Source of the DNA: Croceicoccus sp.
Lineage (GTDB): Bacteria > Pseudomonadota > Alphaproteobacteria > Sphingomonadales > Sphingomonadaceae
Assembly (NCBI GenBank): GCA_002694745.1
Contig: NZMY01000016.1
Location: forward strand, 62,001-126,000
Length of the DNA stretch: 64,000 nt
Direction: 5' to 3'
The notes beneath the pieces are model-generated. The model had not been told where the DNA came from, made no database searches, and saw only the letters and a program-made list of their open reading frames with translations. Of the stretch, positions 30,524 to 50,736 are shown one piece after another; position 1 is the stretch's first letter, and every line of letters starts with the position of its first letter. A program made the position numbers and the translations under genes.

Positions 30524-30538
30524 GGAAACCGGTGTCAT
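30524..30538 (-). promoter_or_regulatory. Uronate-regulon operator copy 1 (hydratase / lacI intergenic)
   Basis: Minus-strand ATGACACCGGTTTCC, one mismatch to the island consensus WTGACACCGGTTACC. It lies between the divergent hydratase (start 30493) and LacI regulator (start 30708), so it may control both. Confidence 0.75.
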
Positions 30539-30707
30539 AATGAAGACAGCCGGGAAAGCAAGACCTTCCCGGAACAAGGTCCGGTACCGGGCCATGAACA
30601 GGGAACGGGAGGGGGCAACGCCGACGATGGCGCTTCATGCGTCAGACCTTACGGCTTTTGTCACTCTGCGCTAAGGCCTGAAAGACCAGGGGTCTGCGGA
30701 GTTTGGA

Positions 30708-31739
30708 ATGGGAAGTGAACGAAGGAACGAGCGGCAGCCGACGATCAACGACGTCGCCCGCGTGGCGGGTGTATCGAAAAAGACCGTCAGCCGGGTCATC
30801 AACCGCTCGCCCCTGCTCAAGGACGATACGCGGCAAAAGGTCGAAAGCGTCATTGCGGAACTGGGCTATGTCCCCAATCCGCAGGCCCGCGCGCTGGCGC
30901 TGCGCCGCAATTTCCTGCTGGGCCTGCTGCACGACAACCCGAACGCGCAGACCGTGCTGAATTTCCAGATCGGCGTGCTCGACGCGATCCGCGACACCAA
31001 TTTCGCGCTGGTGGTCCGTCCGGTGAACCGTCACTCGCCCAACATGCTCGACGACATCCGCGACTTCCTCGAAAAGCAGCGGCTCTACGGCGTATTCATC
31101 CTGCCCCCGATTTCCGAGAACGAGGAACTGGCCGCGCTCTGCCGCGAGCTTGACTGCGCCTATGTCCGCATGGGGTCGACCCAGCTCGACAGCCCGCAAT
31201 ATCTGGTCGAATCGAACGACCGCGAGATCGTGGCCAGCGCGGTCGACCATTTGGTCGAGATGGGGCACCGCCGCATCGGCCTGATCGAGGGGCCCGAAGG
31301 CTTCCGCTCCGCCTTCGAACGGCGCGAGGGTTTTCTCGACGGCATCCGCCGCCACGGGTTGGAATATCGCGCCGAATGGCACGCACCCGGCCAGTACACC
31401 TTCGATTCGGGGATCGAGGCGGCGGAGCGCATCCTCTCCCTCCCCGACCGTCCCAGCGCAATCTTCGTTTCGAACGACGAGATGGCGGCCGCCTCGATGC
31501 ATGTCGCACGAAACAAGGGCCTGCTGGTGCCCGACGACTTGTCGATCATCGGCTTCGACGACAGCCCCATCGCCTCGCATATCTGGCCGCCGCTCACCAC
31601 CGTGCGCTGGCCCATCCGCGAGATGGCAAGCGTCGCGGCGCACAAGCTGATCGATTCCGAAGATGCCGATCAACTGCCCTCGCGCCTGCCGTCGCAGCTG
31701 ATCCGCCGGTCCTCGGTCGCGCCGCCGCGCGAAAAATGA
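30708..31739 (+). CDS. LacI-family regulator of the pectin/galacturonate island
   Basis: 343 residues. The N-terminal LacI helix-turn-helix is TINDVARVAGVSKKTVSRV at about 11-29, followed by the hinge helix with NPQARALALRR. The C-terminal periplasmic-binding-like domain has the usual FVSNDEMAAASMHVA and DDLSIIGFDDSPIA motifs and would bind a sugar-acid ligand. It sits among the uronate genes, and six copies of a motif with the CCGG centre typical of LacI operators flank them, so it is the obvious candidate regulator. The inducer (galacturonate, KDG or a related compound) cannot be deduced. Confidence 0.9.
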   Translation: MGSERRNERQPTINDVARVAGVSKKTVSRVINRSPLLKDDTRQKVESVIAELGYVPNPQARALALRRNFLLGLLHDNPNAQTVLNFQIGVLDAIRDTNFALVVRPVNRHSPNMLDDIRDFLEKQRLYGVFILPPISENEELAALCRELDCAYVRMGSTQLDSPQYLVESNDREIVASAVDHLVEMGHRRIGLIEGPEGFRSAFERREGFLDGIRRHGLEYRAEWHAPGQYTFDSGIEAAERILSLPDRPSAIFVSNDEMAAASMHVARNKGLLVPDDLSIIGFDDSPIASHIWPPLTTVRWPIREMASVAAHKLIDSEDADQLPSRLPSQLIRRSSVAPPREK

Positions 31740-31787
31740 TCGTCCCTGCCGGTTGAAATACCCCCCCTATGTCGTCTATCTAGGCTT

Positions 31788-31802
31788 TTGACACCGGTTA
31801 CC
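31788..31802 (+). promoter_or_regulatory. Uronate-regulon operator copy 2 (dhuI-kduD-kdgK operon)
   Basis: TTGACACCGGTTACC, perfect match to the island consensus, 67 bases before the ATG of the isomerase gene and after the LacI gene. Confidence 0.8.
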
Positions 31803-31869
31803 TAAATCCAGCCCGCATCGGGCGGAATACGAAAATTCGGCTCGGACAGAGCCAGACAGCGAGGATGTT

Positions 31870-32502
31870 ATGAAGATTGCAATCATCACCGAGAACAGCC
31901 AGGCCGCGAAGAACTGCATCATCGAGGAAGCGCTGAAGTCCACGGTCGAGCCGATGGGCCACGAAGTCGTGAACTATGGCATGTACACGCCCGAGGACAA
32001 GGCGCACCTGACCTATCCGATGGTCGGCCTGCTGACCGGCATCCTGCTCAATTCCAAGGCGGTCGATTTCGTCGTCACCGGCTGCGGCACGGGTTCGGGA
32101 TCTATGCTGGCGGCCAATGCCATGCCGGGCGTGTTCTGCGGCCTCGTCATCGATCCGACCGACGCGTTCCTGTTCGCGCAGATCAACGACGGCAACGCGG
32201 TCGCCATGCCCTATGCCAAGGGCTTCGGCTGGGCTGCCGAACTCAATCTGCAGGACTGCTATCGCAAGCTGTTCGAGGGTGAGAGCGGCGTCGGCTATCC
32301 CAAGGAACGCGCCGAGGTCATGGCCAAGAACCGCGGCGTCCTTGCCGATCTCAAGGCCGCCAGCTGCAAGGACATGCTGACCGTGCTCAAGAGCGTGGAC
32401 CAAGACCTGCTCAAGACCGCCATTTCGGGCGAACGTTTCGAAGAGCATTTCTACCCCGCGTCGAAGGACGAGCAGATCAGCGCCTATCTGAAGAGTCTGT
32501 AA
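31870..32502 (+). CDS. RpiB/LacA-fold sugar isomerase, DhuI-like
   Basis: 210 residues with the RpiB/LacA/LacB fold: MKIAIITENSQAAKN at the N-terminus, a YPMVG segment and VTGCGTGSGSMLAAN, which resembles the phosphate-free catalytic loop, plus PTDAFLFAQINDGNAVAMP. It is longer than RpiB (about 150). In streptococci an RpiB-fold enzyme, DhuI, isomerises 4-deoxy-L-threo-5-hexosulose uronate, doing the job of the unrelated cupin KduI, and is paired with a reductase DhuD. Here the gene lies one gene before a KduD/DhuD-type reductase and a KDG kinase, no KduI is present, and an operator copy precedes it. DhuI activity is therefore a strong inference. Confidence 0.8.
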   Translation: MKIAIITENSQAAKNCIIEEALKSTVEPMGHEVVNYGMYTPEDKAHLTYPMVGLLTGILLNSKAVDFVVTGCGTGSGSMLAANAMPGVFCGLVIDPTDAFLFAQINDGNAVAMPYAKGFGWAAELNLQDCYRKLFEGESGVGYPKERAEVMAKNRGVLADLKAASCKDMLTVLKSVDQDLLKTAISGERFEEHFYPASKDEQISAYLKSL

Positions 32503-32630
32503 GCGCCGATCCATCGCGGGGGTGGCGCGGCCATCCCCGCCGATACGACATGAACGACCGCCTTGCGCATGCAGGGGCCGACCGCGACAAACATCGTCCG
32601 GCGGCGACGAAACCCCGAGAGGACGACCCG

Positions 32631-33401
32631 ATGAACAGCCCCTTCGACCTTACCGGCCGCGTCGCGGTCGTCACCGGCGCCAACACCGGCATCGGACAGG
32701 GAATCGCCCTCGCTCTGGCCCAGGCCGGGGCGGATATCGCCGCCGTAGGCCGCAGCGAAGCCACCGAAACCGCCGACAAGGTGCGCGCCCTTGGCCGCAA
32801 GTGCGAGTTGGTCTCCGCCGATCTCTCCTCCATCGCGTCGGTCAAGGATGTCGTGGAAAGCGTCGTCTCCTCGCTCGGCTCGCTCGACATTCTGGTCAAT
32901 AATGCGGGCATCATCCGGCGCGAGGACGCGCTGGACTTCTCGGAAGAGGACTGGGATGCCGTGATGGACACCAATCTGAAGTCGCTGTTCTTCCTGTGTC
33001 AGGCGGCCGCGCGGCACATGACCGGCTGGTCCAGCCAGTCGGGCAAGCGCGGCAAGATCATCAATATCGCATCCATGCTGACCTTTCAGGGCGGTATCCG
33101 CGTGCCCAGCTATACCGCCAGCAAGTCGGGTGTCGGCGGCCTCACCAAGCTGATGGCCAACGAATGGGCGGCCAGGGGCGTCAATGTGAACGCCATCGCG
33201 CCGGGCTATATCGCCACCAACAACACCGCGGCGCTGCAGGCGGACGAAGCCCGCAACCGCCAGATCATGGAACGCATCCCCGAAGGCCGCTGGGGCGATC
33301 CCAAGGACATCGGCGGCGCGGCGGTCTTCCTCGCCAGCAACGCGGCGGACTATGTGCAAGGCCATATCCTCGCCGTCGACGGCGGCTGGCTTGCCCGCTG
33401 A
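32631..33401 (+). CDS. kduD: 2-dehydro-3-deoxy-D-gluconate 5-dehydrogenase (KduD/DhuD-type SDR)
   Basis: 256 residues from ATG 32631 (GAGAGGA upstream); an in-frame ATG at 32550 adds 27 unlikely residues. Classical short-chain dehydrogenase: cofactor motif TGANTGIGQG at about 15-24, NNAGI, catalytic Tyr161 and Lys165 in YTASK, preceded by Ser in NIASMLTFQGG, which resembles KduD. It should reduce 3-deoxy-D-glycero-2,5-hexodiulosonate to KDG with NAD(P)H. It lies after the DhuI-like isomerase and before KdgK, completing the arm that uses unsaturated galacturonate from the pectate lyase. Confidence 0.88.
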   Translation: MNSPFDLTGRVAVVTGANTGIGQGIALALAQAGADIAAVGRSEATETADKVRALGRKCELVSADLSSIASVKDVVESVVSSLGSLDILVNNAGIIRREDALDFSEEDWDAVMDTNLKSLFFLCQAAARHMTGWSSQSGKRGKIINIASMLTFQGGIRVPSYTASKSGVGGLTKLMANEWAARGVNVNAIAPGYIATNNTAALQADEARNRQIMERIPEGRWGDPKDIGGAAVFLASNAADYVQGHILAVDGGWLAR

Positions 33402-33411
33402 GGACGCCGCG

Positions 33412-34446
33412 GTGAGCGAACGCCGCACCGGACCAGTCGTATGCTTCGGGGAAATGCTTCTGCGGCTGAGCCCGCAGAGCCATATCCCGCTGGCACAAGC
33501 AGGCAGCGTCGCCATCGACGTCGGCGGGGCGGAGGCGAATGTCGCCGCGGCGCTTTCCAGCCTTGGCGTGCCCACGCGCATGATGTCGGTCGTCCCCGAC
33601 AATCCGCTGGGCTGCAAGGCGATCGCCGCGATGGGCGCAGCGGGCAGCGACACTCGCTTTATCGTGAAGCAGCCGGCCAAAACACCTGGACGCATCGGCC
33701 TCTATTTCTTCGAACCGCCTGCCGGGCCCATCGCGGGCCGCGTCACCTATGACCGCGCGGGTAGCAGCTTTGCGCTGGCCGATCCCTCCGCCCTGCCCTT
33801 CGCCGAGGCGCTCGACGGGGCCAGCCTGCTCCACATGTCGGGCATCACCCCCGCGCTTGGCCCCGATGGGGTGGCGCTGGCGCGCGCCGCCGTGGCGGCG
33901 GCCAAGGCGGCGGACGTGCCGATCTGCTTCGACGGCAATTACCGCGCGAATTTGTGGGACGCATGGGACAGCGACCCGCGCGCGATCCTGACCGAGCTGA
34001 TGTCCGAAGCCACGCTGATGATCGGCAACCACCGCGACATTTCGTTGCTCTTGGGCACAACATTCTCGGGCGACGGCCCCGACCGCCGCCGCGAGGCGAG
34101 CCAGGCCGCGTTCGAAGCCTTTCCCAAACTGCAATTGATCGCCAGCACCGCGCGCCATGTCGAGACCGCGGGCACACACCGCATCGCCGCGCGCATCGAT
34201 CTGCGCGATACCCATTGGCAGACCGAAGAAGTGCGGATCGAGAATATCGTCGACCGCATCGGCACCGGTGACGCCTATGCCGCGGGCATGTTGCGCAGCT
34301 GGCTGGCGGGCGGTTCGGCGCAGGACATGGCGAAGTCCGGTCTCGCGCTCGCGGCGCTGAAACACGGCGTTCCGGGCGACATGATCCTCGTGACCGCGGA
34401 CGATCTTGACAGCTTCGATCCGGCGGGCGGCGATGTCCGGCGCTGA
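33412..34446 (+). CDS. kdgK: 2-keto-3-deoxygluconate kinase
   Basis: 344 residues from GTG 33412, preceded by GAGGA that overlaps the stop of kduD. PfkB-family sugar kinase: VVCFGEMLLRLSP start, GGAEANVAAALSSLG, CFDGNYRANLWD and the catalytic IGTGDAYAAG loop with Asp287. It phosphorylates KDG to 2-keto-3-deoxy-6-phosphogluconate. Both uronate arms in this window meet at this step. The matching aldolase (Eda) is not in the window and must lie elsewhere, for example with Entner-Doudoroff genes. The carboxylesterase gene overlaps its last 14 bases. Confidence 0.93.
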   Translation: MSERRTGPVVCFGEMLLRLSPQSHIPLAQAGSVAIDVGGAEANVAAALSSLGVPTRMMSVVPDNPLGCKAIAAMGAAGSDTRFIVKQPAKTPGRIGLYFFEPPAGPIAGRVTYDRAGSSFALADPSALPFAEALDGASLLHMSGITPALGPDGVALARAAVAAAKAADVPICFDGNYRANLWDAWDSDPRAILTELMSEATLMIGNHRDISLLLGTTFSGDGPDRRREASQAAFEAFPKLQLIASTARHVETAGTHRIAARIDLRDTHWQTEEVRIENIVDRIGTGDAYAAGMLRSWLAGGSAQDMAKSGLALAALKHGVPGDMILVTADDLDSFDPAGGDVRR

Positions 34447-35989
34447 TTCCGCAAACCGCCGCAGCGTCCTGAAAACCGGGCTGATCGGCTCCGGCCTGCT
34501 GGCCGCGCCCGCCTTCGGCCAGTCCCGCACCCCGCGTGTCGGCGGCTATGAAGGCATCCGGCAAGCGGGCGTGAACGCCTTCCTCGGCATCCGATATGCG
34601 ACAGCGCAGCGCTTCGCCCGCCCCGTTCGCCTGCCCTTCGCCAGCGCGCCGACGCCCGCCAAGGCGTTCGGCCCGATCTGCCCCCAGCGCGGCAGTCCGG
34701 ACGAGCCGGTGAGCGAGGACTGCCTGTTCCTCAATGTCTGGACACCCGACCTCAGCCCCGCCGCGAAAAAGCCCGTCATGGTCTATTTCCACGGCGGCGC
34801 CTACAATGGCGGCACAGTCACCGATCCGGTCACCCACGGCCAGCATCTGGCGGGGCAAGGCGATGTCGTGGTGGTCTCGGTCAACCAGCGCCTCAACGTG
34901 TTCGGCTATCCGTGGCTCGCACCCTTCGATGCGCGCTATGCCGACAGCGGCAATCTGGGGCAGCTCGACCTGATCGCCGCGCTCGAATGGGTGCGCGACC
35001 ACGCCGCGAAATTCGGCGGCGATCCGTCGCGCGTGATGGTGTTCGGCCAGTCGGGCGGCGGCGCCAAGATCGCGACGCTGATGGCCATGCCCGCCGCCAA
35101 CGGCCTGTTCCATTCCGCCGCGACAATGAGCGGGCAGCAGGTCACCGCCAGCGGCCCGACCAATGCGCTGAAACGCATCACGGCCTTCTTCGAACAGGTC
35201 GGCGTCCCCGTCGGCGACGTGGACGGATTGAAGGTGCTCTCGACCGAGCAGATGGTCGCCGGACTCGACGCCACCGATCCGGTGCTGGGCGGCAGCCTCT
35301 ATTTCGGGCCGGTGCTCGACATGGTGAACCTGCCGCGCCACCCTTTCTGGCCCGACGCCGCGCCGCAGTCTCTCGCGATTCCGATGATCCTGGGCAATAC
35401 GACAGACGAAACGCGCGCCTTCATCAGCCCGGACGGTCCCTTCCTGCAGGGCATCGACTGGTCCAATATCGCCGAGCGCATCCGGCCCAACATCAAGATC
35501 GACCTGCGCCCCGATTACGTGGTGCAGCAATATCGCGAACATTTCCCCGACTGGTCGCCCGAGCAAGTGTTCTATGCCGCCACGACCGACGGACGCAGCT
35601 GGCCGGGCCAGTGGATCGAGGCGGACGAGCGCGCAAAGGCGGGTGCGGACAAGACCTGGGTCTATCAGCTCGACCGCGAATCCCCGGTCGATCCGCAGCG
35701 CGGGGCGGCGCATACCGACGACCTGCCCTATGTGTTCGGCACGCTGGACGCACCGGGCAGCTACTCCGGCACGGGCAAGCGGGCGCGGGACATCAGCGCG
35801 GCGATGATCAGGGCCTTCACTGGCCTTGCCCGCACTGGCACGCCGGGCCTGACCGACTGGGCACCTTACACCCTGCCCGACCGCGCCACGCTGATGGTGG
35901 CGCAAGACCGCATCGCGATTGAGAACGACCCGCGCGGCTGGCAGCGCGAAATGTGGTCGACCGCGCCCTATATCCAGCCGGGGATCTGA
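34433..35989 (+). CDS. Exported type B carboxylesterase
   Basis: 518 residues from ATG 34433, overlapping kdgK by 14 bases. A Tat-like signal (ANRRSVLKTGLIGSG) suggests export. Type B carboxylesterase fold: FLGIRYATAQRFARP, SEDCLFLNVWTP, oxyanion segment YFHGGAY, nucleophile elbow FGQSGGGAK with Ser207 where the family usually has GESAG, and a late HTDDLPYVFG His. The likely role is removing ester groups (methyl, acetyl or feruloyl) from pectin fragments, judging from its neighbours; the actual ester is unknown. It is the fourth gene of the dhuI-kduD-kdgK operon. Confidence 0.88.
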   Translation: MSGADSANRRSVLKTGLIGSGLLAAPAFGQSRTPRVGGYEGIRQAGVNAFLGIRYATAQRFARPVRLPFASAPTPAKAFGPICPQRGSPDEPVSEDCLFLNVWTPDLSPAAKKPVMVYFHGGAYNGGTVTDPVTHGQHLAGQGDVVVVSVNQRLNVFGYPWLAPFDARYADSGNLGQLDLIAALEWVRDHAAKFGGDPSRVMVFGQSGGGAKIATLMAMPAANGLFHSAATMSGQQVTASGPTNALKRITAFFEQVGVPVGDVDGLKVLSTEQMVAGLDATDPVLGGSLYFGPVLDMVNLPRHPFWPDAAPQSLAIPMILGNTTDETRAFISPDGPFLQGIDWSNIAERIRPNIKIDLRPDYVVQQYREHFPDWSPEQVFYAATTDGRSWPGQWIEADERAKAGADKTWVYQLDRESPVDPQRGAAHTDDLPYVFGTLDAPGSYSGTGKRARDISAAMIRAFTGLARTGTPGLTDWAPYTLPDRATLMVAQDRIAIENDPRGWQREMWSTAPYIQPGI

Positions 35990-35992: not shown

Positions 35993-36433
35993 TTATTTCG
36001 CCGCCACCGGATAGGCGATGATGATCGACAGCGGCGCATCGCCGGTCTGCCGCATGCCCACGACCGCGCCTTCGTACAGATAGGCCGCCATGCCGGGTTT
36101 TAGCGCCGCCTCCACCCCGTCCGAAATCACCACGCCCTCGCCCTCGGTGACGTAATAGACCTCGTCATGGCTGATCGGATGCTCGCCGATGGCCGCGCCA
36201 ACGTCGAGCACGCGGCGGCGGAATTCCATCGTGCGCGGCTGCGGCGCGGCGTCGCTGATGCGGTACGCGGTCGACATGCCGATCGCGCCATGGGGCGGCG
36301 CCTCGCGCACCATCACCTCGCTTTCGCTGACCACCACCATCGGCGGCGCGGTGCCGCTGGTCGGCTCCTGTGCCGTGGCGCAGGCGGAGCAGGCCAGCAG
36401 CGACACGCCCAATATGGCGCGCCCCGCGATCAC
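35993..36433 (-). CDS. Lipoprotein cupin, possibly KdgF-like
   Basis: 146 residues from GTG 36433, which overlaps the pectate lyase stop by four bases (GTGA), so it is translationally coupled. Residues 12-15 (LLAC) form a lipobox, so it is probably anchored in the envelope facing the periplasm. The rest is one cupin domain: HPISHDEVYYVTEGEG, with candidate metal-binding His, His and Glu, then a second strand set LKPGMAAYLYEGAVVG. Small cupins of the KdgF type speed ring-opening of unsaturated uronates from lyases. The usual second-motif His is not evident here, and KdgF is normally cytoplasmic, so the assignment is tentative. Confidence 0.7.
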   Translation of the reverse strand: MIAGRAILGVSLLACSACATAQEPTSGTAPPMVVVSESEVMVREAPPHGAIGMSTAYRISDAAPQPRTMEFRRRVLDVGAAIGEHPISHDEVYYVTEGEGVVISDGVEAALKPGMAAYLYEGAVVGMRQTGDAPLSIIIAYPVAAK

Positions 36434-37776
36434 CGGGCCTGCTCGCGCATGGCCCGGTCGCGCGCGCTCAGGAATTCCTGCGCCTCGACGGTCTGACCGG
36501 GATAGAGCCCCGATTTGGGCGTCATCGTCGCCAGATCCCACTGCGCCGGATCGAACGCCGCGCGGGTCGCGGGGAACGTCGGATAGCCGCCGACCTCGTC
36601 CTGCGAATCGATGATCTCGCCGCGCCCTTCGGCGATATAGAACAGCACGCGGATCTCCTCGTCCGTGCGGTCCCACGGCCGCGCACCGGCCTGCCGCAGC
36701 AGCGTCGTCTCCACGTCCTTGGCGGGCATCACGTCGTAACCGTCCGGGCTGTGCAGCGGTGCATCGACCTCGATCAACTCCGCCTCGGTCTGGCCATAGG
36801 TGCCGAACATGGGCAGCGGCTCGCCGTGGCGGGCCACCGCGATATTGTCGGCCCCGTAATATTTGAGGTCGCCCACACCGCCCAGCATCAGGAACGGCAG
36901 ATCTTCCGACGTCGAATTGCCGCCGCGCATCACATTGCCGACCGCGGTGATCTCGCCCGCCACATGCGGATGACCCATCCATTCGAGGTCCATCAGATTA
37001 TAATGCACCGCGCGCAGGCCGGGGTCATAGATGAAATTATTGACCATCAGCACCTGCGCCCCGCCCTTCACCAACGGCGAGCGTTCGACATTATGCGCCC
37101 AGATATTGCGGTCGAACACGATATTGGTCGCATTGTCGTGGATCAGCGAGCCCTTGGAATGCTCGCCCTTGGGATGGCTCGAATCGGCCAGCCCCTCGGC
37201 GGCGAAGTTCAGGCGGAAGGTAATGTCGTGGCTGGTGCCCTCGCGCCATTCCTCGACCGTGTCGCCGGTAAAGCGCGGGCCGCTGGCCGACATATTCTCG
37301 TCCACCGCCCACATGAAACTGTTGTTCTCGACCACGACATTATGCGCCGCCACGGTCGAGAAGGCGTCGGCCTCCCAGCCGCTGCGCTTGGGTTCGCCCG
37401 CGTCACCCATCATCACGCGCAAATGGCTGATCTTGACGTCATGGGTCTTCACGTCGATCCCGCCGCGCAGGATGGTGATGCCCGGCGACGGCGCGGTCTG
37501 GCCCGCGATGGTGACGAACGGTTCCTCGATGACAAGGCCCGATTTCTCCAGATCGATCGCGCCGCCGACTTCGAACACGATGATACGCGGCCCCTTCATG
37601 GCCAGCGCGGCGGCCAGGCTGCCCGGCCCGTCCTTCGCCAGCGTCGTCACCTTGAGGATCTTGCCGCCCTTGCCGCCCTCGGTCGGGTCTCCGGGCTGTG
37701 CCATCGAAGGCACACTCGTCGCCGCAAGGATCAGGGTCGCGGCTGCCAAGCCGCTGAAATAGGCGCTTTTCAACAT
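36430..37776 (-). CDS. Secreted pectate lyase (polysaccharide lyase family 1-like)
   Basis: 448 residues from ATG 37776, with GGGAGAA upstream. A signal peptide ends at SMAQ. The parallel beta-helix is read from the stacked pattern IIVFEVGGAIDLEKSG, PFVTIAGQTAPSPGITILRGG, VKISHLRVMMGD, VVVENNSFMWAVDEN and IVFDRNIWAHNVERSPLVKGG, as in the pectate lyase superfamily. It cuts polygalacturonate by beta-elimination, leaving unsaturated ends that the DhuI/KduD arm can use. An operator copy lies 59 bases upstream. The spacer to the divergent TonB receptor gene is shared. No pectin methylesterase or GH28/GH105 is in the window. Confidence 0.88.
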   Translation of the reverse strand: MLKSAYFSGLAAATLILAATSVPSMAQPGDPTEGGKGGKILKVTTLAKDGPGSLAAALAMKGPRIIVFEVGGAIDLEKSGLVIEEPFVTIAGQTAPSPGITILRGGIDVKTHDVKISHLRVMMGDAGEPKRSGWEADAFSTVAAHNVVVENNSFMWAVDENMSASGPRFTGDTVEEWREGTSHDITFRLNFAAEGLADSSHPKGEHSKGSLIHDNATNIVFDRNIWAHNVERSPLVKGGAQVLMVNNFIYDPGLRAVHYNLMDLEWMGHPHVAGEITAVGNVMRGGNSTSEDLPFLMLGGVGDLKYYGADNIAVARHGEPLPMFGTYGQTEAELIEVDAPLHSPDGYDVMPAKDVETTLLRQAGARPWDRTDEEIRVLFYIAEGRGEIIDSQDEVGGYPTFPATRAAFDPAQWDLATMTPKSGLYPGQTVEAQEFLSARDRAMREQAR

Positions 37777-37834: not shown

Positions 37835-37849
37835 ATGACACCGGTTACC
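37835..37849 (+). promoter_or_regulatory. Uronate-regulon operator copy 3 (pectate lyase side)
   Basis: ATGACACCGGTTACC, full match to the consensus, 59 bases upstream of the pectate lyase ATG in the divergent spacer. Confidence 0.82.
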
Positions 37850-37902: not shown

Positions 37903-37917
37903 GGTAACCGGTGTCAT
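37903..37917 (-). promoter_or_regulatory. Uronate-regulon operator copy 4 (TonB receptor side)
   Basis: Minus-strand ATGACACCGGTTACC, identical to copy 3 and inverted to it, 29 bases upstream of the TonB receptor ATG. The two copies are 68 bases apart, which would allow looping. Confidence 0.82.
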
Positions 37918-40749: not shown

Positions 40750-41766
40750 ATGAAATCTGATCGAAGATCGGTTATTGCCGCTGGCCTTGCCTTCTCCACC
40801 TTGATTCATACTCGCGGTGAGGCGCAAACAGCACCGCCGAGCGCGGGAGGCCCAAGCTCTCCGGGCCTCCCGCAACCTCTTGAAACGATTGACTTGTGGC
40901 CCGGCAGGCTGTGGCCAAAGGGCGCGCCCGGTGCACCCGGCTCCCTCCCCGACGAAGTGACGACGGAACGCTCCGCCGATCCGCTCGTCTCCGACCGCGC
41001 CGTCCTCGGCATTTCCGTGCCGCGGCTTGCCGTGTTCCGCCCCGATCGACCGAACGGGGCGGCGCTCCTCCTGACCCCCGGCGGCGGCTATCGCCATGTC
41101 GTCGTGGACAAGGAAGGGTACGAATTCGCGCGTTGGGCCACGGCGCGCGGATTCACCTGTTTCGTCCTGTTCTACCGGCTGCCCTATGACGGCTGGGCGA
41201 ACCGGGCCGACGTTCCGCTGCAGGATGCGCAGCGCGCCATGCGCGTCATCCGCCGCCGCCACCGCGACTTTGCCATCGACCCCGAACGCGTCGGTGCGAT
41301 GGGCTTCTCCGCAGGCGGGCATTTGTGCGCCGACCTCGCCGCGCGCTTTGCCGCGCGCACCTACGAACCGGCGGACGAGGCGGATGCGCTGTCGGCAAAG
41401 CCGTTCTGCGCCGCGCCGATCTATCCCGTTATCTCGATGGACCCGCAATTCGCGCACCCCGGCTCGCGCGAACTTCTGCTGGGCGAGAACCCGACCAAGG
41501 CGATGGAAGCAGCCCATTCGCCCGACCGCAACGTCCCCGAAAATGCGCCCCCGCACTGGATCCTCCATGCCGAGGATGACGATGTCGTGCCGGTCAAGAA
41601 CGCGCTCCTGCTGCGCGCGGCGCTGAAGGCGCGCGGCATTCCGGTCGAGACCCATCTGTTCCAGAACGGCGGCCACGGCTTTGGCTTGCGCAAGGCCATC
41701 GGCAAGCCGGTCGGCCACTGGCCCGAACTGTGGCGCGACTGGGCCCAGAGCGTGGGGTTCGCGTGA
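40750..41766 (+). CDS. Exported alpha/beta hydrolase, acetyl-esterase-like
   Basis: 338 residues. A signal peptide-like N-terminus has an arginine pair (SDRRSVIAAGLAFS). The core is an alpha/beta hydrolase of the acetyl esterase/BD-FAE group: LLLTPGGGYRHVV (oxyanion), nucleophile elbow GFSAGGH, and late Asp (HAEDDDVVPV) and His (NGGHGFG). Such enzymes often de-acetylate hemicellulose or pectin. It lies between the TonB receptor and a GH43 enzyme, which supports a role in trimming pectin side groups. Its TGA overlaps the next ATG by one base, so the two are coupled. The substrate is inferred. Confidence 0.85.
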   Translation: MKSDRRSVIAAGLAFSTLIHTRGEAQTAPPSAGGPSSPGLPQPLETIDLWPGRLWPKGAPGAPGSLPDEVTTERSADPLVSDRAVLGISVPRLAVFRPDRPNGAALLLTPGGGYRHVVVDKEGYEFARWATARGFTCFVLFYRLPYDGWANRADVPLQDAQRAMRVIRRRHRDFAIDPERVGAMGFSAGGHLCADLAARFAARTYEPADEADALSAKPFCAAPIYPVISMDPQFAHPGSRELLLGENPTKAMEAAHSPDRNVPENAPPHWILHAEDDDVVPVKNALLLRAALKARGIPVETHLFQNGGHGFGLRKAIGKPVGHWPELWRDWAQSVGFA

Positions 41767-43427
41767 TGAAATCGGGTCGCCGGGACATCTTCCGCGGAGC
41801 CGCGCTCCTCTCCCTGACCGGACTGATGGGGGTGCCCGGCGCGTCGGCACTGGCACAGTCGCCCCCTGCCCCAGCCCCGCGCGCCCCCGGCCCGCGCGCC
41901 CCCGCACCCCGCGCCACCAACTGGCGCCGCGACGGCGAAGGCAAGCGCATCGCCGATCTGGGCAATGGGCGCTTCCTCAATCCGCTGATCTCGGGTGATC
42001 GCCCCGATCCGGCGATCCTGAGGGACGGCGACGATTATTACGTCACCTTCTCCACCTTCGACGCCTATCCGGGCCTGCTGATCTGGCATTCGCGCGATCT
42101 GGTGAACTGGCAGCCGCTGAAGCCCGCGCTGCACAGGAACATCGGATCGGTCTGGGCCCCCAGCCTGCACAAGGACAGGGGGAAATATCTCCTCTACATC
42201 CCGGTGAAGGCCCAGCCGAGGAACGACATCTTCGTCGCATGGGCCGACAATATCACCGGCCCTTGGAGCGACCCGATCCCGCTCGGCCTGCACGATCATA
42301 TCGACCCCTGTCACGCCGTCGCCGAAGACGGTTCGCGCTGGCTGTTCCTGTCGGGCGGCGACCGGGTGCGCCTGTCGGACGACAATCTGGCCCTCGCCGG
42401 AGAGGTCGAGCATGTCTACGACCCATGGCGCTATCCCGCCGACTGGATCGTCGAGGGTTTCTCGCCCGAAGGCCCCAAGATCCATCATGTCGGCGACTGG
42501 TACTACATGATCACCGCAGTCGGCGGCACCGCCGGTCCGCCCACCGGCCACATGGTGATCGCCGCGCGTTCGAAGTCGCTGCACGGCCCGTGGGAGGATC
42601 ACCCCGGCAATCCCATCGTGCGCACCACCGACATCCGCGAAGCATGGTGGTCGCGCGGCCACGCCTCGCTGGTGCAGGCGCCCGACGACAGCTGGTGGTC
42701 GCTCTATCACGGATATGAGAACGGTTTCTGGACGCTGGGCCGCCAGTGCCTGATGGACCCGGTGCGCTTTACCGATGACGGCTGGTTCGAAATGACCGGC
42801 GGCGATCTGTCGCAGCCGATCGCCAGTCCCACGGGCGGCGAAGCGCTGCCGCACGGCATGGCGCTGTCCGATGATTTTTCGCAGCCTCTCGCGCTCGGCA
42901 CCAAGTGGTCGTTCTTCAAACCCGCCGATGACGAGGAAGCGCGCATCCGCGTGGCCGAAAACACGCTGCATCTGAAGGGCAAGGGCGATGCGCCCTCTTC
43001 GGGCTCGCCGCTGCTCATCACCGCGGGCGACCGCAGCTACAGGTTCGAATGCGATATCGAGATCGAGCCGGGCGGCCGCGCCGGGCTGATCCTGTTCTAC
43101 GACGACAGGCTCTATGCCGGGCTCGGTTTCGACGAGGACCGCTTCGTCACCCATCAATACGGGATAGAACGCGCCCGCCCCTTGAACCCGCATGGCCGAA
43201 GGATGAGGATGCGGGTCACCAACGATCGCCATATCGTCACCTTCGACACCAGCGGCGACGGCGGCCGGACATGGCTGCGTTTCGACCGGGGGATGGAAGT
43301 GTCGGGCTATCATCACAATGTGCGCGGCGATTTCCTGATGCTGCGCCCCGGCCTCTATTCGGCGCGCGGCGGCACCGCGACATTCCGCGACTTCACCTTC
43401 CGCGCCTTCGATCCGGACGCTGCATGA
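41766..43427 (+). CDS. Glycoside hydrolase family 43 enzyme with C-terminal lectin-like domain
   Basis: 553 residues from ATG 41766 (TGATG overlap with the esterase). A signal peptide (FRGAALLSLTGLM) is followed by a low-complexity Ala/Pro/Arg linker. The catalytic five-bladed propeller (about 75-360) shows RPDPAILRDGDDYYVTFST with the general-base Asp, YLLYIPVKA, and IVEGFSPEGPKIHHVGDWYY with the candidate acid Glu. The C-terminal region (about 375-553) resembles the DUF1349-type concanavalin domain often found on GH43. It probably removes arabinose or xylose from pectin side chains; the exact bond is unknown. Its end overlaps the TRAP binding-protein gene by four bases. Confidence 0.88.
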   Translation: MKSGRRDIFRGAALLSLTGLMGVPGASALAQSPPAPAPRAPGPRAPAPRATNWRRDGEGKRIADLGNGRFLNPLISGDRPDPAILRDGDDYYVTFSTFDAYPGLLIWHSRDLVNWQPLKPALHRNIGSVWAPSLHKDRGKYLLYIPVKAQPRNDIFVAWADNITGPWSDPIPLGLHDHIDPCHAVAEDGSRWLFLSGGDRVRLSDDNLALAGEVEHVYDPWRYPADWIVEGFSPEGPKIHHVGDWYYMITAVGGTAGPPTGHMVIAARSKSLHGPWEDHPGNPIVRTTDIREAWWSRGHASLVQAPDDSWWSLYHGYENGFWTLGRQCLMDPVRFTDDGWFEMTGGDLSQPIASPTGGEALPHGMALSDDFSQPLALGTKWSFFKPADDEEARIRVAENTLHLKGKGDAPSSGSPLLITAGDRSYRFECDIEIEPGGRAGLILFYDDRLYAGLGFDEDRFVTHQYGIERARPLNPHGRRMRMRVTNDRHIVTFDTSGDGGRTWLRFDRGMEVSGYHHNVRGDFLMLRPGLYSARGGTATFRDFTFRAFDPDAA

Positions 43428-44452
43428 CCCAACGCTTTTCCCTCTCACGCCGCAGGCTGATCGCGGGCGGCACGGCTTTTGCCGGTCTCGCGCTCACCGG
43501 CTGCCAGCCGCGCCTGTCGGGCCTGTTCACCGGGGCCGACACGCATCCTGGCGATTATCCCACCGTGCAGGCGGTCGAATATATGGGCCGGCTGCTGGGC
43601 GAACGCACGGGCGGACGGCTGGGCATCAAGGTGTTCGCCGGTTCGCAGCTGGGCAATGAACGCGACACGCTGGAGATTACCAGCTTTGGCGGCATCGACT
43701 TCAACCGCGTCAATCTCGCCCCGCTCAATTCGGTCGAGCCGATGACGATCCCGCCCTCGCTGCCCTTCATCTTCAGATCGGTGGCGCATATGCGCCGCGC
43801 GCTGGACGGCGACATCGGGGACGAGATCCTGGCCGCGATGGAAAAGCAGGGGCTGATCGGCCTGTGCTTCTACGATTCCGGGGCGCGCAGCGTCTATAAC
43901 ACCCGCCGCGCGATCTTCACGCCGGACGACATGCGCGGGCTGAAACTGCGCGTCCCCTCGTCCGATCTCTATCTCGCCATGGTCAATGCGCTGGGCGCGA
44001 ACGCCGTCCCCATGCCCTTTGACGAGGTGTACCAGTCGCTCGCGCAGGGCGTGATCGACGGGGCGGAGAACAACTGGCCCAGCTTCGAAAGCGCGCGCCA
44101 CTACGAAGTGGCCCGCTACATGAGCCTGACGCAGCACCTCTTCACCCCCGAAATCCTGCTGATGTCGAAAATCAGCTGGGACAAGCTTTCGGCCGAAGAC
44201 CAGCAACTGGTGCGGCAGGCGGCACGCGAATCCGTGCCCTTCATGCGCGACCTGTGGGACGCGCGCGTCGAAAGCAGCCGCGCCAATATCGTCGCCTCGG
44301 GCGTCGAGGTGAACGACGTCGACACCGCTCCCTTCGCGCAGCAGATGCGCCCGGTGTGGGACCAGTTCCTCGTCACCCCGCAGCAGCAGGACATCGCCAG
44401 CCGCATCGTCGCGCTGGGCGAGCAAATGGCCAAACAGGAGAAGCCGTCGTGA
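43424..44452 (+). CDS. TRAP transporter solute-binding protein (DctP family)
   Basis: 342 residues from ATG 43424 (ATGA overlap with GH43). A twin-arginine/lipoprotein signal (SRRRLIAGG ... LTGC) anchors or exports it. DctP/TeaA pattern: VFAGSQLGNERDTLE, GGIDFNRVNLAPL, LPFIFRS, LKLRVPSSDLYLAMVNALGANAVPMPFDEVYQSLAQGVIDGAENN, ending in QQMRPVWDQF. The conserved Arg (LKLRV) should bind a carboxylate. In this island the likely ligand is galacturonate or an oligogalacturonide. It is cotranscribed with the DctQ and DctM membrane subunits that follow. Confidence 0.92.
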   Translation: MTQRFSLSRRRLIAGGTAFAGLALTGCQPRLSGLFTGADTHPGDYPTVQAVEYMGRLLGERTGGRLGIKVFAGSQLGNERDTLEITSFGGIDFNRVNLAPLNSVEPMTIPPSLPFIFRSVAHMRRALDGDIGDEILAAMEKQGLIGLCFYDSGARSVYNTRRAIFTPDDMRGLKLRVPSSDLYLAMVNALGANAVPMPFDEVYQSLAQGVIDGAENNWPSFESARHYEVARYMSLTQHLFTPEILLMSKISWDKLSAEDQQLVRQAARESVPFMRDLWDARVESSRANIVASGVEVNDVDTAPFAQQMRPVWDQFLVTPQQQDIASRIVALGEQMAKQEKPS

Positions 44453-44937
44453 AATTCATCTCCGACTGGCTCGCCCGCCTCGGCGCATTCGGCCTTGTCG
44501 TCATGACCGCCGTGGTCGGCTGGCAGGTGTTCGGCCGCTTCATCCTCGATTCCAGCCCATCATGGACCGAGCAGACCGCGCTGCTGCTGATGATCTGGTA
44601 CGTCCTCTTCGCCGCCGCCGCGGGAGTGCGAGAGGGCTTCCATATCCGCATCGCGTTGCTCGACGATCTGGTGGGCGAACGATCCGTCGCCGTCCTGCAC
44701 CGCATCATCAATGTGCTGGTCGCGCTCATGGGCCTCGCCATCGCGGTCTATGGCGCGCAATTGCTGTGGGCGGTGCGCGATCACGTGATCCCCTCGCTCG
44801 GCCTCAGCCGCTGGGTCGCCTATGCGCCGCTGCCGATCAGCGGCCTGCTGATGGCGATCTTCGCGGTCGAAAACATGGTCCGCCCGCCCAGCGACGACGG
44901 GCTGGAAGACAGCCCGATTCCGGGGAGCGCCGACTGA
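44449..44937 (+). CDS. TRAP transporter small membrane subunit (DctQ family)
   Basis: 162 residues from GTG 44449, overlapping the DctP stop (GTGA). Four membrane helices with the family motif WTEQTALLLMIWYVLFAAAAGVREGFHIRI, split here as SWTEQTALLL and REGFHIRIALLDD. It joins the large DctM subunit to make the Na+-coupled TRAP permease. Its stop overlaps the DctM start by one base. The whole DctPQM set is tightly coupled to the GH43 gene. Confidence 0.92.
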   Translation: MKFISDWLARLGAFGLVVMTAVVGWQVFGRFILDSSPSWTEQTALLLMIWYVLFAAAAGVREGFHIRIALLDDLVGERSVAVLHRIINVLVALMGLAIAVYGAQLLWAVRDHVIPSLGLSRWVAYAPLPISGLLMAIFAVENMVRPPSDDGLEDSPIPGSAD

Positions 44938-46217
44938 TGGAACTGCTCGTCCTTTTCGGGGTGCTCTTCGCCCTGCTCGCCATCGGCGTCCCCGTGGCCT
45001 TCGCCTTGTTCGGCGCGGCGCTCGCCTGCTTTGCGGTGATCGACATCCCGCTGGTGGTCGCGGTGCAGCGCATGGCATCGGGCATCAGCGTCTTCACCCT
45101 GATGGCGATCCCCTTCTTCATCTTCGCCGGAGACCTGATGTACCGCGCCGGCATCGCCGACCGGCTGGTCAAGGTCGCCGACGCCGCGCTGGGCCGCGTG
45201 CGCGGCGGGCTGGGGCTGGTCGACGTGGGGGCCTCGATGATGTTCGGCGCCGTATCGGGCAGCGCCATCGCCAGCGCGTCCGCCATTGGGTCCAGCCTGG
45301 TCCCGCTGATGCGCGACAAGGGCTATCCCGGCGATTACGCGGTGAACGTGACGGTGACGGCGGCCATCGTCGGCCTGCTGATCCCGCCTTCGCACAACAT
45401 GATCATCTATTCCGCCGCATCGGGCATCGGCGTGTCGATCGGCGACTTGTTCGTGGCGGGCATCGTGCCTGGCCTGCTGACCGGCTTCCTGCTGATGCTG
45501 GTGGCATGGCTGGTGGCCCGCCGCCGCAATCTGCCGAAGGGCAGCTTCCCCGGCTGGCGCAACTTCGTCGTCGCCGCGATCTACGCGATCCCCGGCCTGA
45601 TGACCGCGGTCATCATCATGGGCGGCATATTGTCGGGCTATTTCACCGCCACCGAAAGCTCGGCCATCGCGGTGATCTATACCATCGTGATCGGCGTATT
45701 CGTCTATCGCAGCCTCGGCTGGGCGGCGTTCTGGGACGCGGCGGGCAAGTCGGTGCGCACCGCGGCCATGGTGCTGTTCATCATCGCGGCGGCCACGGCC
45801 TTCGGCTTCGCGCTTGCCCTGCTGGAAGTTCCCGCCGCACTCGCCAGCCTGATCGCGGTCATCACCGACGATCCGTTTCTGACGCTGCTGATCATCAACA
45901 TCATGCTTCTGCTACTGGGCACCTTCATGGACATGGCGCCGCTGATCGTGATCACCACGCCGATCTTCCTGCCCGTCGCGATGGGCATGGGCGTCGACCC
46001 GGTGCATTTCGGCATCATCATGATGCTGAACCTCGGCATCGGACTGGTGACGCCGCCGGTGGGCTCGGTGCTGTTCGTGGGCTCCGCGGTGGGCAAGATC
46101 CCGGTGACCACGCTGGTGAAGACGATCTGGCCGTTCTACGGCACGCTGATCTTCGCGCTCGCGCTGATCACCTATATTCCGTGGCTGTCGCTGGGCTTGC
46201 TGGGCATGTGGAACTGA
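44937..46217 (+). CDS. TRAP transporter large permease (DctM family)
   Basis: 426 residues from ATG 44937 (TGATG overlap). About twelve membrane helices in the DctM pattern: VPVAFALFGAAL, FFIFAGDLMYRAGIADRLV, GAVSGSAIASASAIGSSLVPLM, PPSHNMIIYS, GYFTATESSAIAVIY, LGTFMDMAPLIVITTPIFLPVA and GLVTPPVGSVLF. This is the transport subunit. With DctP and DctQ it forms a high-affinity, binding-protein-dependent secondary importer, here most likely for uronic acids. It is the last gene of the receptor-esterase-GH43-TRAP run. Confidence 0.94.
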   Translation: MELLVLFGVLFALLAIGVPVAFALFGAALACFAVIDIPLVVAVQRMASGISVFTLMAIPFFIFAGDLMYRAGIADRLVKVADAALGRVRGGLGLVDVGASMMFGAVSGSAIASASAIGSSLVPLMRDKGYPGDYAVNVTVTAAIVGLLIPPSHNMIIYSAASGIGVSIGDLFVAGIVPGLLTGFLLMLVAWLVARRRNLPKGSFPGWRNFVVAAIYAIPGLMTAVIIMGGILSGYFTATESSAIAVIYTIVIGVFVYRSLGWAAFWDAAGKSVRTAAMVLFIIAAATAFGFALALLEVPAALASLIAVITDDPFLTLLIINIMLLLLGTFMDMAPLIVITTPIFLPVAMGMGVDPVHFGIIMMLNLGIGLVTPPVGSVLFVGSAVGKIPVTTLVKTIWPFYGTLIFALALITYIPWLSLGLLGMWN

Positions 46218-46221: not shown

Positions 46222-46818
46222 TCACGCCCCGGCGGCCTCGACCATCGCGTCCCATTCATCCCACGGGATCTCGCGCCCCGGATAGGCCACGTTGTCAAAC
46301 GGCCATTCCGCCGCGACCCAGCCCCTGACCCAGTCGTAAAGCGCGGCATCGAAACCGGCGTCATATTCCGCCTTGGTCACCCACAGCATGACCACCGCAT
46401 CATAGCCCTCGACCGGGCTGGGCCGCACATAGACGCTGCCCCGCTCGCGGCTGCCATCGGGCGTCAGCACGCCATAGGCGAAGGATTCGCGCCCTTCGAA
46501 CCGCGCCTGCTCCGTGAGCATGTCCTGCATCGCATCTTCGTCGGTCAGCCCCTCGTGCGGCCATCCGGTGCTGCGCGTGAAAGTCTGCTGCAGATGCTCG
46601 ATAGAGGACATGTAGGCGTCGTAATCCACCTTCACGAGCTCCGGCCCCAGCGGCACCAGCTTGAACCCGTCCCCCTCGGCCAGCACCGGCACGTCGAACC
46701 CGGCAGGAACGAAAGCATCCTCCGCCGCAGCGGCACCCGCCTCCTGCGCCAGCACGGCCCCGCCCGCCACCGGCCCGGCGGCCAGCAGCAATCCGGCCAA
46801 AGCAATCGCGATCCTCAT
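46222..46818 (-). CDS. Exported protein with GNAT-like pattern
   Basis: 198 residues with a clear signal peptide (IALAGLLLAAGPVAGGAVLAQ-like, cleaved near 25). The mature part runs VKVDYDAYMSSIEHLQQTF, GWPHEGLTDEDAMQDML, SFAYGVLTPDGSRERGSVYVRP and VVMLWVTKAEYDAG, which recalls a group of GNAT N-acetyltransferase-like proteins (WP..DFT...D..., FTYTVL.PDG..CLGCVYI.P). Normal GNATs are cytoplasmic because they need acetyl-CoA, so an exported one is odd and may have another function. The four-base gap to the TRAP permease is convergent. The family match is by memory of motifs, not a search. Confidence 0.6.
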   Translation of the reverse strand: MRIAIALAGLLLAAGPVAGGAVLAQEAGAAAAEDAFVPAGFDVPVLAEGDGFKLVPLGPELVKVDYDAYMSSIEHLQQTFTRSTGWPHEGLTDEDAMQDMLTEQARFEGRESFAYGVLTPDGSRERGSVYVRPSPVEGYDAVVMLWVTKAEYDAGFDAALYDWVRGWVAAEWPFDNVAYPGREIPWDEWDAMVEAAGA

Positions 46819-48847: not shown

Positions 48848-48868
48848 CCTCGGCGTTCCGACACCGCC

Positions 48869-48917: not shown

Positions 48918-49056
48918 ACTGTCCTACACACCCCCGATCCGCTATCGCCGAACCGCCGCCACCCTCTGGCACCGGCTCTTTGAAACCGTCCGATCTCTCC
49001 GCACCCCGCGCGTGTAAACTTTGGGCCGGAACGCCAGCATCTCCGCGGCCTTGCGC

Positions 49057-49097
49057 AAGGTGACAGCCCTTGTAGGATGTGTCACCTTTGTCACTTT
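49057..49097. repeat. Perfect 9-bp inverted repeat with an extra half-copy
   Basis: AAGGTGACA (49057-49065) is mirrored by TGTCACCTT (49080-49088) across 14 bases, followed at once by a near copy TGTCACTTT (49089-49097). It lies just past the uxaA stop on the minus strand and could be a terminator, regulator site or dispersed repeat. Confidence 0.6.
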
Positions 49098-49119
49098 TCA
49101 AACGCCTGAAAGGCCGCGC

Positions 49120-50649
49120 CTAAAGCGTGACGCCGCGCTTCCAGATCGAGATGACGCGCTGGCCGCTGCGCTCGCTGGCGGTCTGGCGGCCACTCGCGAT
49201 GGCCAGCAATTCCTGCGCGAAATCGGCGTCCACCTCCCCGGCGGGTTCGCTCAACATGCGGCCCGCGTCGAAGTCGATCCAGCCCGCTTTGCTGGCCGCC
49301 AGCTTCGAATTGGACGCGATCTTCACCGTGGGCACCGGAAAGCCCAAAGGCGTGCCGCGGCCCGTGGTGAACAGGATCATGGTCGCCCCCGCCGCCGCCA
49401 GCGCGGTCGAGGACACGGCATCGTTGCCCGGCGCTTCCAGCAAGGTCATGCCCGCCATGTCCGCCGTGCCGCCATAATCGATCACGTCGACCAGCGGCGC
49501 CTTGCCGCCCTTCTGCACCGCGCCCAGCGATTTCTCCTCCAGCGTGGTGATCCCGCCCTCGATATTGCCGGGAGAGGGATTTTCCGAAACCGGCTGCCCC
49601 TGCTCAAGGAAATAGCGTTTGAACCGGTTGAGCAGCCCCGTCGCCTTGTCGTGAACCTCGCCCGAGACGCTGCGCGCGAACAGCGATCCTTCCGCGCCGA
49701 ATATCTCGGGGATTTCGGTCAACACCAGCCGCCCGCCGCTGGCCGCAACCCGGTCGCTGAACCGGCCAAGCAGCGGATTGGCCGTCACGCCCGAAAGCGC
49801 GTCCGACCCCCCGCATTTCAGCCCGACCGCCAATGCCGAGGCAGGCGCTTTCACCCGCGTCTCGCCGGACAATTCCCCGACCAGCGCGTCGATCAGCGCA
49901 TTGGCGCGGTCATATTCGTCGCCCGGATCCTGCGCACGCATCACCCGCAGCTTGGACCGGCTGCGTTCGGGCACACGCTCGATCAGCGCGTCCAGCTGGT
50001 TGCTCTCGCACCCAAGGCCGATCAGCACCACCCCGCCCGCATTGGGATTGTCGCACAGCGCCGCCAGAACATCGCGCGTCCCCGACAGATCGTCGCCCAG
50101 CTGCGAACAGCCATGCGGATGGCCAAAGCCGACGATCCCGTCGATCTTGCCCGCCGCGATCGCATCGCCGTGGCGCATCTCCGCCTCGCGCGCCAGCATC
50201 TCGCACATCGGCGCGACGCAGCCGACCGTCGGGATCAGCCAGATCTCGTTTCGCGTGGCATAGCGGCCATCCTCGCGCCGGTATCCAAGCCAGCTGCCCA
50301 GCGGCTCGGCCCCGGTGTCATTTTCAGGCCCCGCGAAATCGCCATAGGCCACCTCGCCCGACAGCGCGGTCTTCAGATTATGCGAATGCACATGATCGCC
50401 GGCCGAAATCGGCGCACTGGCCAGCCCGATCTGCTCGCCATAGCGGATCACCGGATCGCCCAGCGCATGATCCCGCAGCGCAATCTTGTGACCCGAACAA
50501 ATTGCGGTATTCGCCGTGATCGCGGCGCCGTTTGCCTCGACCGCCTCGCCCGCCGCGATATCGCGCAAGGCCACCAGCACGGTATCATCGGCATGGCAGC
50601 GCATGGCTGTCGGCATGCGGGTCTGTTCGATCGTGCCTGTTGTTGTCAT
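49120..50649 (-). CDS. uxaA: Altronate dehydratase
   Basis: 509 residues, the fused form. An N-terminal SAF domain (DDTVLVALRDIAAGEAV, near 20-90) is followed by the large altronate/galactarate dehydratase domain with PTVGCVAPMCEM, GFGHPHGCSQLGDD, GLGCESNQLD, VGLKCGGSDALSGVTANP and GTPLGFPVPTVKIASN. It is an iron-dependent enzyme that removes water from D-altronate to give KDG, the last step of the isomerase arm of galacturonate breakdown. It is divergent from uxaC across a 132-base spacer that holds two operator copies. Confidence 0.94.
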   Translation of the reverse strand: MTTTGTIEQTRMPTAMRCHADDTVLVALRDIAAGEAVEANGAAITANTAICSGHKIALRDHALGDPVIRYGEQIGLASAPISAGDHVHSHNLKTALSGEVAYGDFAGPENDTGAEPLGSWLGYRREDGRYATRNEIWLIPTVGCVAPMCEMLAREAEMRHGDAIAAGKIDGIVGFGHPHGCSQLGDDLSGTRDVLAALCDNPNAGGVVLIGLGCESNQLDALIERVPERSRSKLRVMRAQDPGDEYDRANALIDALVGELSGETRVKAPASALAVGLKCGGSDALSGVTANPLLGRFSDRVAASGGRLVLTEIPEIFGAEGSLFARSVSGEVHDKATGLLNRFKRYFLEQGQPVSENPSPGNIEGGITTLEEKSLGAVQKGGKAPLVDVIDYGGTADMAGMTLLEAPGNDAVSSTALAAAGATMILFTTGRGTPLGFPVPTVKIASNSKLAASKAGWIDFDAGRMLSEPAGEVDADFAQELLAIASGRQTASERSGQRVISIWKRGVTL

Positions 50650-50658
50650 ATCGTTCTT

Positions 50659-50673
50659 TCGACACCGGTATCT
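50659..50673 (+). promoter_or_regulatory. Uronate-regulon operator copy 5 (uxaA side, weaker)
   Basis: TCGACACCGGTATCT, core CGACACCGGT kept but the right arm diverges from the consensus. It starts 10 bases upstream of the uxaA ATG. A partial half-site (TTGACCGGTTGA) follows at 50680-50691. Confidence 0.6.
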
Positions 50674-50721
50674 ATCGGATTGACCGGTTGATTCTGGTCG
50701 GCACCCATTGCATGAGCGCCT

Positions 50722-50736
50722 TTGACACCGGTTACC
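50722..50736 (+). promoter_or_regulatory. Uronate-regulon operator copy 6 (uxaC side)
   Basis: TTGACACCGGTTACC, identical to copy 2, 45 bases upstream of the uxaC ATG and in the spacer shared with uxaA. Confidence 0.82.

Follow-up and report, generated by a model that had tools for sequence, protein, structure and literature searches.

A candidate LacI-type operator set for pectin and uronate genes in Croceicoccus and related sphingomonads

The window considered here, a stretch of 64,000 nucleotides from Croceicoccus sp. (assembly GCA_002694745.1, contig NZMY01000016.1, positions 62,001 to 126,000 of the forward strand), holds an island of pectin and uronate genes with a LacI-family regulator gene, lacI, among them, and a short motif recurs in the spacers of this island. 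Two questions are raised by this arrangement: whether the motif copies are the operators of that regulator, and why they should be asymmetric and nearly always face the gene that they precede. From sequence comparison, we consider it highly probable that they are the operators of a single LacI-family regulator, most probably a repressor, controlling pectin uptake and uronate breakdown. In the mechanism that we infer for binding by this LacI, repression and effector, a LacI dimer would sit on an asymmetric 14-mer with its TGACACC half away from the gene and its GGTTWCC half on the gene side. The operator would lie on or beside the core promoter (in the spacer, at the –10 box or at the start site, depending on the gene), blocking RNA polymerase, and would be released by a catabolite common to both breakdown branches; the likeliest candidates are 2-keto-3-deoxygluconate (KDG) and the compound preceding it in the unsaturated-uronate branch. 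The regulator–motif link, the targets, the asymmetry, the prevailing direction and the preferred offsets were computed here; all the evidence is computational, gene calls and promoter boxes are predictions, and the relatives compared (149 genomes from the family and 240 from the class) are not independent of one another.

An earlier note on this DNA had reported six copies of a 15-base operator, all of them in promoter spacers of the island, and had noticed none elsewhere in the window. A motif scan of the window confirmed exact WTGACACCGGTTACC starting at 31788 (+), 37835 (+), 37903 (–) and 50722 (+), and a site at 30524 (–) with a single mismatch to it, A to T at the variable base. The 14-mer TGACACCGGTTWCC thus has five copies in the window, each intergenic and ahead of a pectin or uronate gene or operon. 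The sites are the following:

30524..30537, minus strand: candidate operator TGACACCGGTTTCC, pointing at the hydratase gene, 30 bases ahead of its start
31789..31802, plus strand: candidate operator TGACACCGGTTACC of the dhuI-kduD-kdgK operon, 67 bases ahead of dhuI, with promoter-like TTGAAA-N18-TATCTA directly upstream
37836..37849, plus strand: candidate operator TGACACCGGTTACC, by its direction that of the TonB receptor operon, with TTGACA-N17-CAATAG directly upstream
37903..37916, minus strand: candidate operator TGACACCGGTTACC, pointing at the pectate lyase gene, 126 bases ahead of its start
50659..50673, minus strand: weak, doubtful operator-like sequence AGATACCGGTGTCGA, directly ahead of uxaA, with more than 3 mismatches
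50723..50736, plus strand: candidate operator TGACACCGGTTACC, 45 bases ahead of uxaC, with TTGATT-N17-CATGAG upstream

The sixth copy claimed, at 50659 (TCGACACCGGTATCT), fails the scan at 3 mismatches and is a doubtful look-alike, so that five of the six copies stand. The sole further window match at up to 3 mismatches, at 46350, lies within a gene, and shuffled windows gave a mean of 1.05 matches, with six being reached in 0 of 100. In the spacer shared by the pectate lyase and TonB receptor genes, the sites at 37835 and 37903 are assigned by direction to the receptor and the lyase, respectively, each site being nearer to the other's gene.

When the scan was extended to the whole 4.02 Mb genome, as the same note had suggested, exact TGACACCGGTTWCC was found in only 6 copies, 5 of them in the window, and its reversed-pattern control in none. 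A looser pattern, tolerating one mismatch and two free bases, gave 23 matches versus 10 for the control, so these matches are mostly background. The sixth exact copy, on contig C42, lies 54 bases ahead of a reading frame that encodes an Apiosidase domain (PF13204, 381.7 bits), and homologues of this gene in two relatives (80–81% identity) are also preceded by an exact site (L106, L107). Therefore, the regulon extends beyond the island to an apiosidase-like glycosidase.

The genome holds three LacI genes above the Pfam cut-off, and the only one in the window is among the island genes, as had been stated:

30708..31739, plus strand: LacI-family regulator of 343 amino acids (PF00356 67.5 bits and PF13377 124.5 bits, both above cut-off)

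Its product carries both the LacI helix-turn-helix and the periplasmic-binding-protein-like sensor domain of the LacI/GalR family, and the 14-mer is of even length and centred on CCGG, with the central CG of LacI/GalR-type operators. The sites precede uronate and pectin catabolism genes, as in LacI-type uronate regulons. The nearest LacI relatives in named genomes come from Croceicoccus sp. (89%) and Croceicoccus mobilis (79%), among the best 80 of 164 relatives, which marks the genome as Croceicoccus-like. Across the family, a LacI orthologue was found in 43 of the 149 genomes at 53–100% identity, the next matches listed being at 43% or below. The exact site was present in 42 of the 43 genomes with the orthologue versus 7 of the 106 without it (p=1.6e-28). 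Outside the family, the exact motif, at any position, was found in 5 of 6 genomes with a 48–53% identical LacI versus 13 of 231 without one, and in those five it lies in the stretch retrieved around lacI. Additionally, in 26 of 30 loci exact sites are found no more than about 1.5 kb from lacI. All 115 orthologue sequences (some of them duplicates from two fetches) carry the recognition stretch S-K-K-T-V-S-R-V without change, where 30 of 30 sequences of a paralogue encoded on contig C41 read S-P-M-T-V-S-R-V. The targets recur in the relatives, namely the hydratase gene, dhuI or kduI, kduD, uxaC, uxaA, pel, the TonB receptor gene and the apiosidase gene. The claim of one LacI-type pectin and uronate regulon is thus supported by co-occurrence, proximity, recurring targets and the invariant recognition stretch, and the motif-to-LacI link appears strong.

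Some observations weigh against this link. One genome (G091) carries the LacI without any exact motif, in another (G152) the surroundings of LacI hold neither the motif nor recognised targets, and the p-values overstate independence because sites in relatives share descent. A further genome (G141) has sites in its pectin loci (L119, L120) and no LacI orthologue was found in it, the best match having 32% identity. G141 and G091 would be expected if the motif were bound by another factor travelling with the pectin island. We regard such a factor as improbable, given the near-perfect co-occurrence with this LacI, the closeness of the exact sites to lacI, the invariant recognition stretch and a CG centre that the text of PMC4052901 presents as typical of LacI operators; moreover, the G141 pectin contig starts within kdgK, and therefore its lacI may be lost at the contig end. 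The seven orthologue-less genomes hold ten copies, three of which are those in the G141 pectin loci. The remaining seven, the only copies in the other six genomes, are all inside genes according to the in-house gene caller and were dismissed as chance matches, as were nine remote copies in G072, likewise all inside genes.

A separate observation concerns G052, in which the lacI match falls into two pieces (L111:10368-11400) of 43% and 52% identity, and the gene may be broken or diverged.

If the motif is the operator of this LacI, its form becomes the next question. The earlier note had pointed to the CG-centred pseudo-palindrome common among LacI-family operators; the CG centre holds here, but the palindrome does not. 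Some site alignments admitted up to one mismatch, their fixed letters coming partly from selection, and some stretches had been fetched by motif. For the latter reason half-sites were counted again from the ACCGGT core alone, at every such site in intergenic DNA up to 350 bases from a gene start, in 120 lacI-centred stretches picked by LacI and not by motif. One TGAC and one GGWA half-site (LR) were combined in 294 of the 446 sites, two TGAC half-sites (LL) in 1 and two GGWA half-sites (RR) in 0, with 68 having a single half and 83 neither, whereas LL and RR sites should be frequent if the two half-sites were mixed equally. Genome-wide, LR was found in 49 of the 149 family genomes (reversed control, 2), the LL palindrome in 4 (control, 0; only 1 in a narrower search in which both sides had to be A or T) and RR in 13 (control, 7). 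The operator is therefore not the palindromic inverted repeat expected of LacI/GalR operators. This leaves the family membership intact, because single LacI operators need not be perfect palindromes.

The asymmetry gives the operator a direction. After removal of sites with identical 54-base surroundings, 146 of the 153 exact sites in tandem-gene spacers (162 stretches) were found to point with their target and 7 against it. Three of these 7 belong to hydratase genes missed by the in-house gene caller, a codon-usage method trained on ten window genes, and 4 are truly reversed before dctP. The one-mismatch sites were divided into 8 with and 6 against the target. Where genes diverge, a site was by rule given to the gene it points at, so such sites provide no independent test of direction.

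Direction is accompanied by placement on the promoter. For 255 non-redundant sites pointing at a gene start (41 of 296 having been dropped for flanks at least 70% alike), TTG-N20-[TC]A pairs, with elements 23 bases apart, favour set offsets from the first base of the 14-mer: 19 were observed at –33, 6 at –32 and 15 at –31 (shuffled mean 0.3 each), 52 at –13 (1.9) and 44 at –7 (0.4). The reverse-complement control gave 18 at –11 and no more than 3 elsewhere, and we take these 18 to be the same self-complementary TTG-N20-CAA pairs as those at offset –1. At –7, an offset seen mostly in hydratase promoters, the operator occupies the space between the predicted boxes. At –13 (dhuI, kduI, uxaC) the –10 box would begin with the operator's own TA, and at –31 to –33 (TonB receptor, some uxaA) the start site would lie under the operator; TTGACA starts 31–33 bases ahead of the site in 46 of 57 TonB-receptor sites. 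The variable base follows these classes, which were defined independently of it: T in 41 of 41 sites at –7 and, at –13, A in 49 of 50, in which the A would occupy the second position of the –10 box. Among ten exact sites in the five outside-family genomes, three at –7 have T (3/3) and three at –13 have A (3/3). It was considered whether the asymmetry arises solely because the operator also serves as a promoter box. This explanation was rejected, since at –7 and at –31 to –33 neither predicted hexamer is overlapped and the operator is still asymmetric.

An oriented 14-mer could also act in messenger RNA, recognised there by a small RNA or an RNA-binding protein. Both direction and asymmetry would then be accounted for, and main-target medians of 26 to 190 bases before start codons would suit this. 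At –7 and –13, however, the motif is located on the predicted –10 box or ahead of it, where it would not be transcribed, and it is linked to a DNA-binding regulator, which makes an RNA target very improbable.

Two accounts of the asymmetry are then to be compared. In one, which we consider possible though less likely than not, the operator would be asymmetric and one-way by design, identical subunits reading unequal half-sites and direction being part of the mechanism. The same 14-mer would be used at several set offsets with the free base tuned to the promoter, the gene-side half supplying the –10 TA at one offset and the operator filling the space between the –35 and –10 boxes at another. 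In the other, of nearly the same but slightly lower probability, asymmetry would not be a feature of recognition at all, and the half-site differences and the direction would have been inherited with a few ancestral promoter–operator cassettes, orthologous promoters sharing ancestry. Such inheritance accords less well with the agreement in direction at unrelated tandem genes (dhuI 36, uxaC 36, hydratase 34 and TonB receptor 17, all with the target), with promoter boxes lying upstream in the pointing direction at several offsets, and with an LR:LL ratio of 294:1 obtained from the ACCGGT core alone.

Several observations count against the proposed operator model and its one-way reading, and the exceptions in direction and symmetry among them would be at home under inheritance. 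Exact dctP sites are found in both directions, the reversed ones at L187:1975, L201:1963, L218:1962 and L227:4307. Six one-mismatch sites before TonB receptors are reversed (L186:12753, L193:15050, L196:12486, L199:7386, L214:15038 and L226:14977), perhaps as second sites of paired operators. Outside the family, an exact site beside the hydratase gene is reversed in L263, in which another site points at lacI, and more symmetric ACCGGT sites (TGACACCGGTGTCA, TGACACCGGTATCA, TGACACCGGTGACA and TGACACCGGTAACA) stand near TonB-receptor genes in four genomes (L264:6176; L266:3220 and 3254; L267:13895; L263:15884). Inside the family, more symmetric sites occur a few times, for example TGACACCGGTATCA (4) and TGGCACCGGTGTCT (8). 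As for placement, offset –1 is weak (19 versus a shuffled mean of 6.1 and maximum of 14), 96 of the 255 sites match no promoter offset, and 4 of the 10 outside-family exact sites are at neither –7 nor –13. Of the window sites, the one at the TonB receptor alone falls on an enriched offset (–33), the TTG offsets of the others being –35 and –43 for uxaC, –36 for dhuI, –41 for pel and –24 for the hydratase; the apiosidase site on C42 is likewise at –24, with a spacer slightly unlike that of the hydratase.

What the proposed LacI regulon would control in the window is given by the following genes:

29708..30493, minus strand: hydratase/decarboxylase-like enzyme, with a weak FAA-hydrolase match (PF01557 19.6 bits, below the cut-off of 23.9; PDB 8ih6 E=4e-9)
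31870..32502, plus strand: DhuI-type isomerase (PDB 4u8e, gbs1892, which we take to be a DhuI protein, E=1.8e-75; NF006753 314 bits)
32550..33401, plus strand: kduD, 2-dehydro-3-deoxy-D-gluconate 5-dehydrogenase (TIGR01832 401 bits, above cut-off)
33454..34446, plus strand: PfkB sugar kinase, probably KDG kinase (PF00294 above cut-off; KDG-kinase models matched below their cut-offs), start from the in-house gene caller
34433..35989, plus strand: carboxylesterase-family protein (PF00135), last in the dhuI operon, start from the same caller
35993..36433, minus strand: cupin protein behind the pectate lyase (PF07883 34.8 bits, above cut-off), which may have a KdgF-like role
36430..37776, minus strand: pectate lyase-like protein (NF041900 PelZ 349 bits, below the equivalog cut-off of 840)
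37947..40721, plus strand: TonB-dependent receptor (TIGR01782 587 bits, above cut-off)
40750..46217, plus strand: downstream of the TonB receptor, pectin acetylesterase-like protein, GH43 and TRAP transporter DctP, DctQ and DctM, with DctQ named by its place between dctP and dctM and by homologues there, not by a family match
49120..50649, minus strand: uxaA-like altronate/galactarate dehydratase (PF20629, PF04295, PF08666)
50782..53498, plus strand: uxaC (glucuronate isomerase family) and uxaB-like mannitol-dehydrogenase-family reductase (NF002794 590 bits, above cut-off; NF011611 312.8 bits, below)

No further operator was found by the window scan among the genes at 40750..46217, which from their spacing probably form one operon with the TonB receptor gene. 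Separately, a frame with an eCIS_core domain match marginally above cut-off (PF13699, 23.5 versus 22 bits) was observed at 53746-54591 of the window.

In the relatives, more sites point at hydratase-like homologues than at any other target (76 of the 303 classified); we know of no role of this enzyme in uronate breakdown. The lacI gene is seldom an evident target, being pointed at by 1 of the 303 sites, 856 bases away, and lying downstream in an operon behind a site in two genomes (G073, G101). Of the 39 genomes with an assigned target, in a tally that undercounts targets, dhuI is targeted in 18 and kduI in 11. The unrelated isomerases KduI (L139:7120-7956, L176:9510-10343) and DhuI (window 31870-32502), called nonhomologous isofunctional enzymes in PMC12838403, are thus preceded, in different genomes, by one and the same operator. 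Sites confined to the unsaturated-uronate branch (dhuI, kduI, kduD) occur in 17 genomes and sites confined to the uxa branch in 1, while 14 genomes have sites on both branches and 7 on neither. These counts favour KDG or its precursors over galacturonate, and the signal would most likely be KDG or a precursor.

If these assignments are right, many sphingomonads gain at one stroke a regulator of pectin use with its predicted binding site and its targets, among them a glycosidase outside the island and a hydratase-like enzyme to which we found no role in uronate breakdown assigned. If direction matters, the treatment of LacI operators as symmetric would be called into question, motif searches that assume palindromes could be improved, and these sites would offer a natural series for how operator position and direction set repression.

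Among known systems, the LacI-type KdgR, UxaR, UxuR and ExuR groups regulate glucuronate and galacturonate catabolism (PMC4052901, Table 1), and the regulon described here resembles them in its LacI-family regulator, its uronate genes and its CG-centred operators near targets. LacI motifs are described in the same source as palindromes of conserved inverted repeats, whereas the operator here is asymmetric; the word 'sphingomonad' is absent from the main text of that paper. A pectin TonB-receptor locus has been described in Xanthomonas (PMC1790865), in a text in which ACCGGT does not appear. Judged by titles and abstract openings, none of the papers listed by searches covering open full text, with few subscription journals and no bioRxiv, described this regulon, and among the full-text matches listed for the motif letters none was by its title a paper on bacterial regulation. 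A further comparison is provided by the C41 paralogue, a LacI of the same family and genome matched in 35 of the 149 genomes at E 1e-90 or better. Near it, the perfect palindrome TGGTAGCGCTACCA is among the best-conserved 14-mers, with up to 2 mismatches in 9 of 30 loci, and some GC-rich 14-mers score as high. Exact TGGTAGCGCTACCA was found in 10 of the 35 genomes with the paralogue versus 2 of the 114 without it, a comparison that is only supportive because the reversed-pattern control matched in 17 of the 149 genomes.

The E. coli lac repressor is a homodimer that prefers a slightly asymmetric operator (PMC6375646). In that case symmetry is broken at a few positions within one set of operators, whereas here an asymmetric consensus is found in dozens of genomes and accompanies the direction of transcription. 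CytR is a LacI-family member with unusual operator layouts (PMC3454398), described there as variably spaced half-sites of weak consensus used with CRP, in contrast to the fixed spacing and strong consensus of the 14-mer. As a regulon, the system is of an ordinary kind, in a lineage for which the literature searches returned no description, and the one-way operator is its unusual part.

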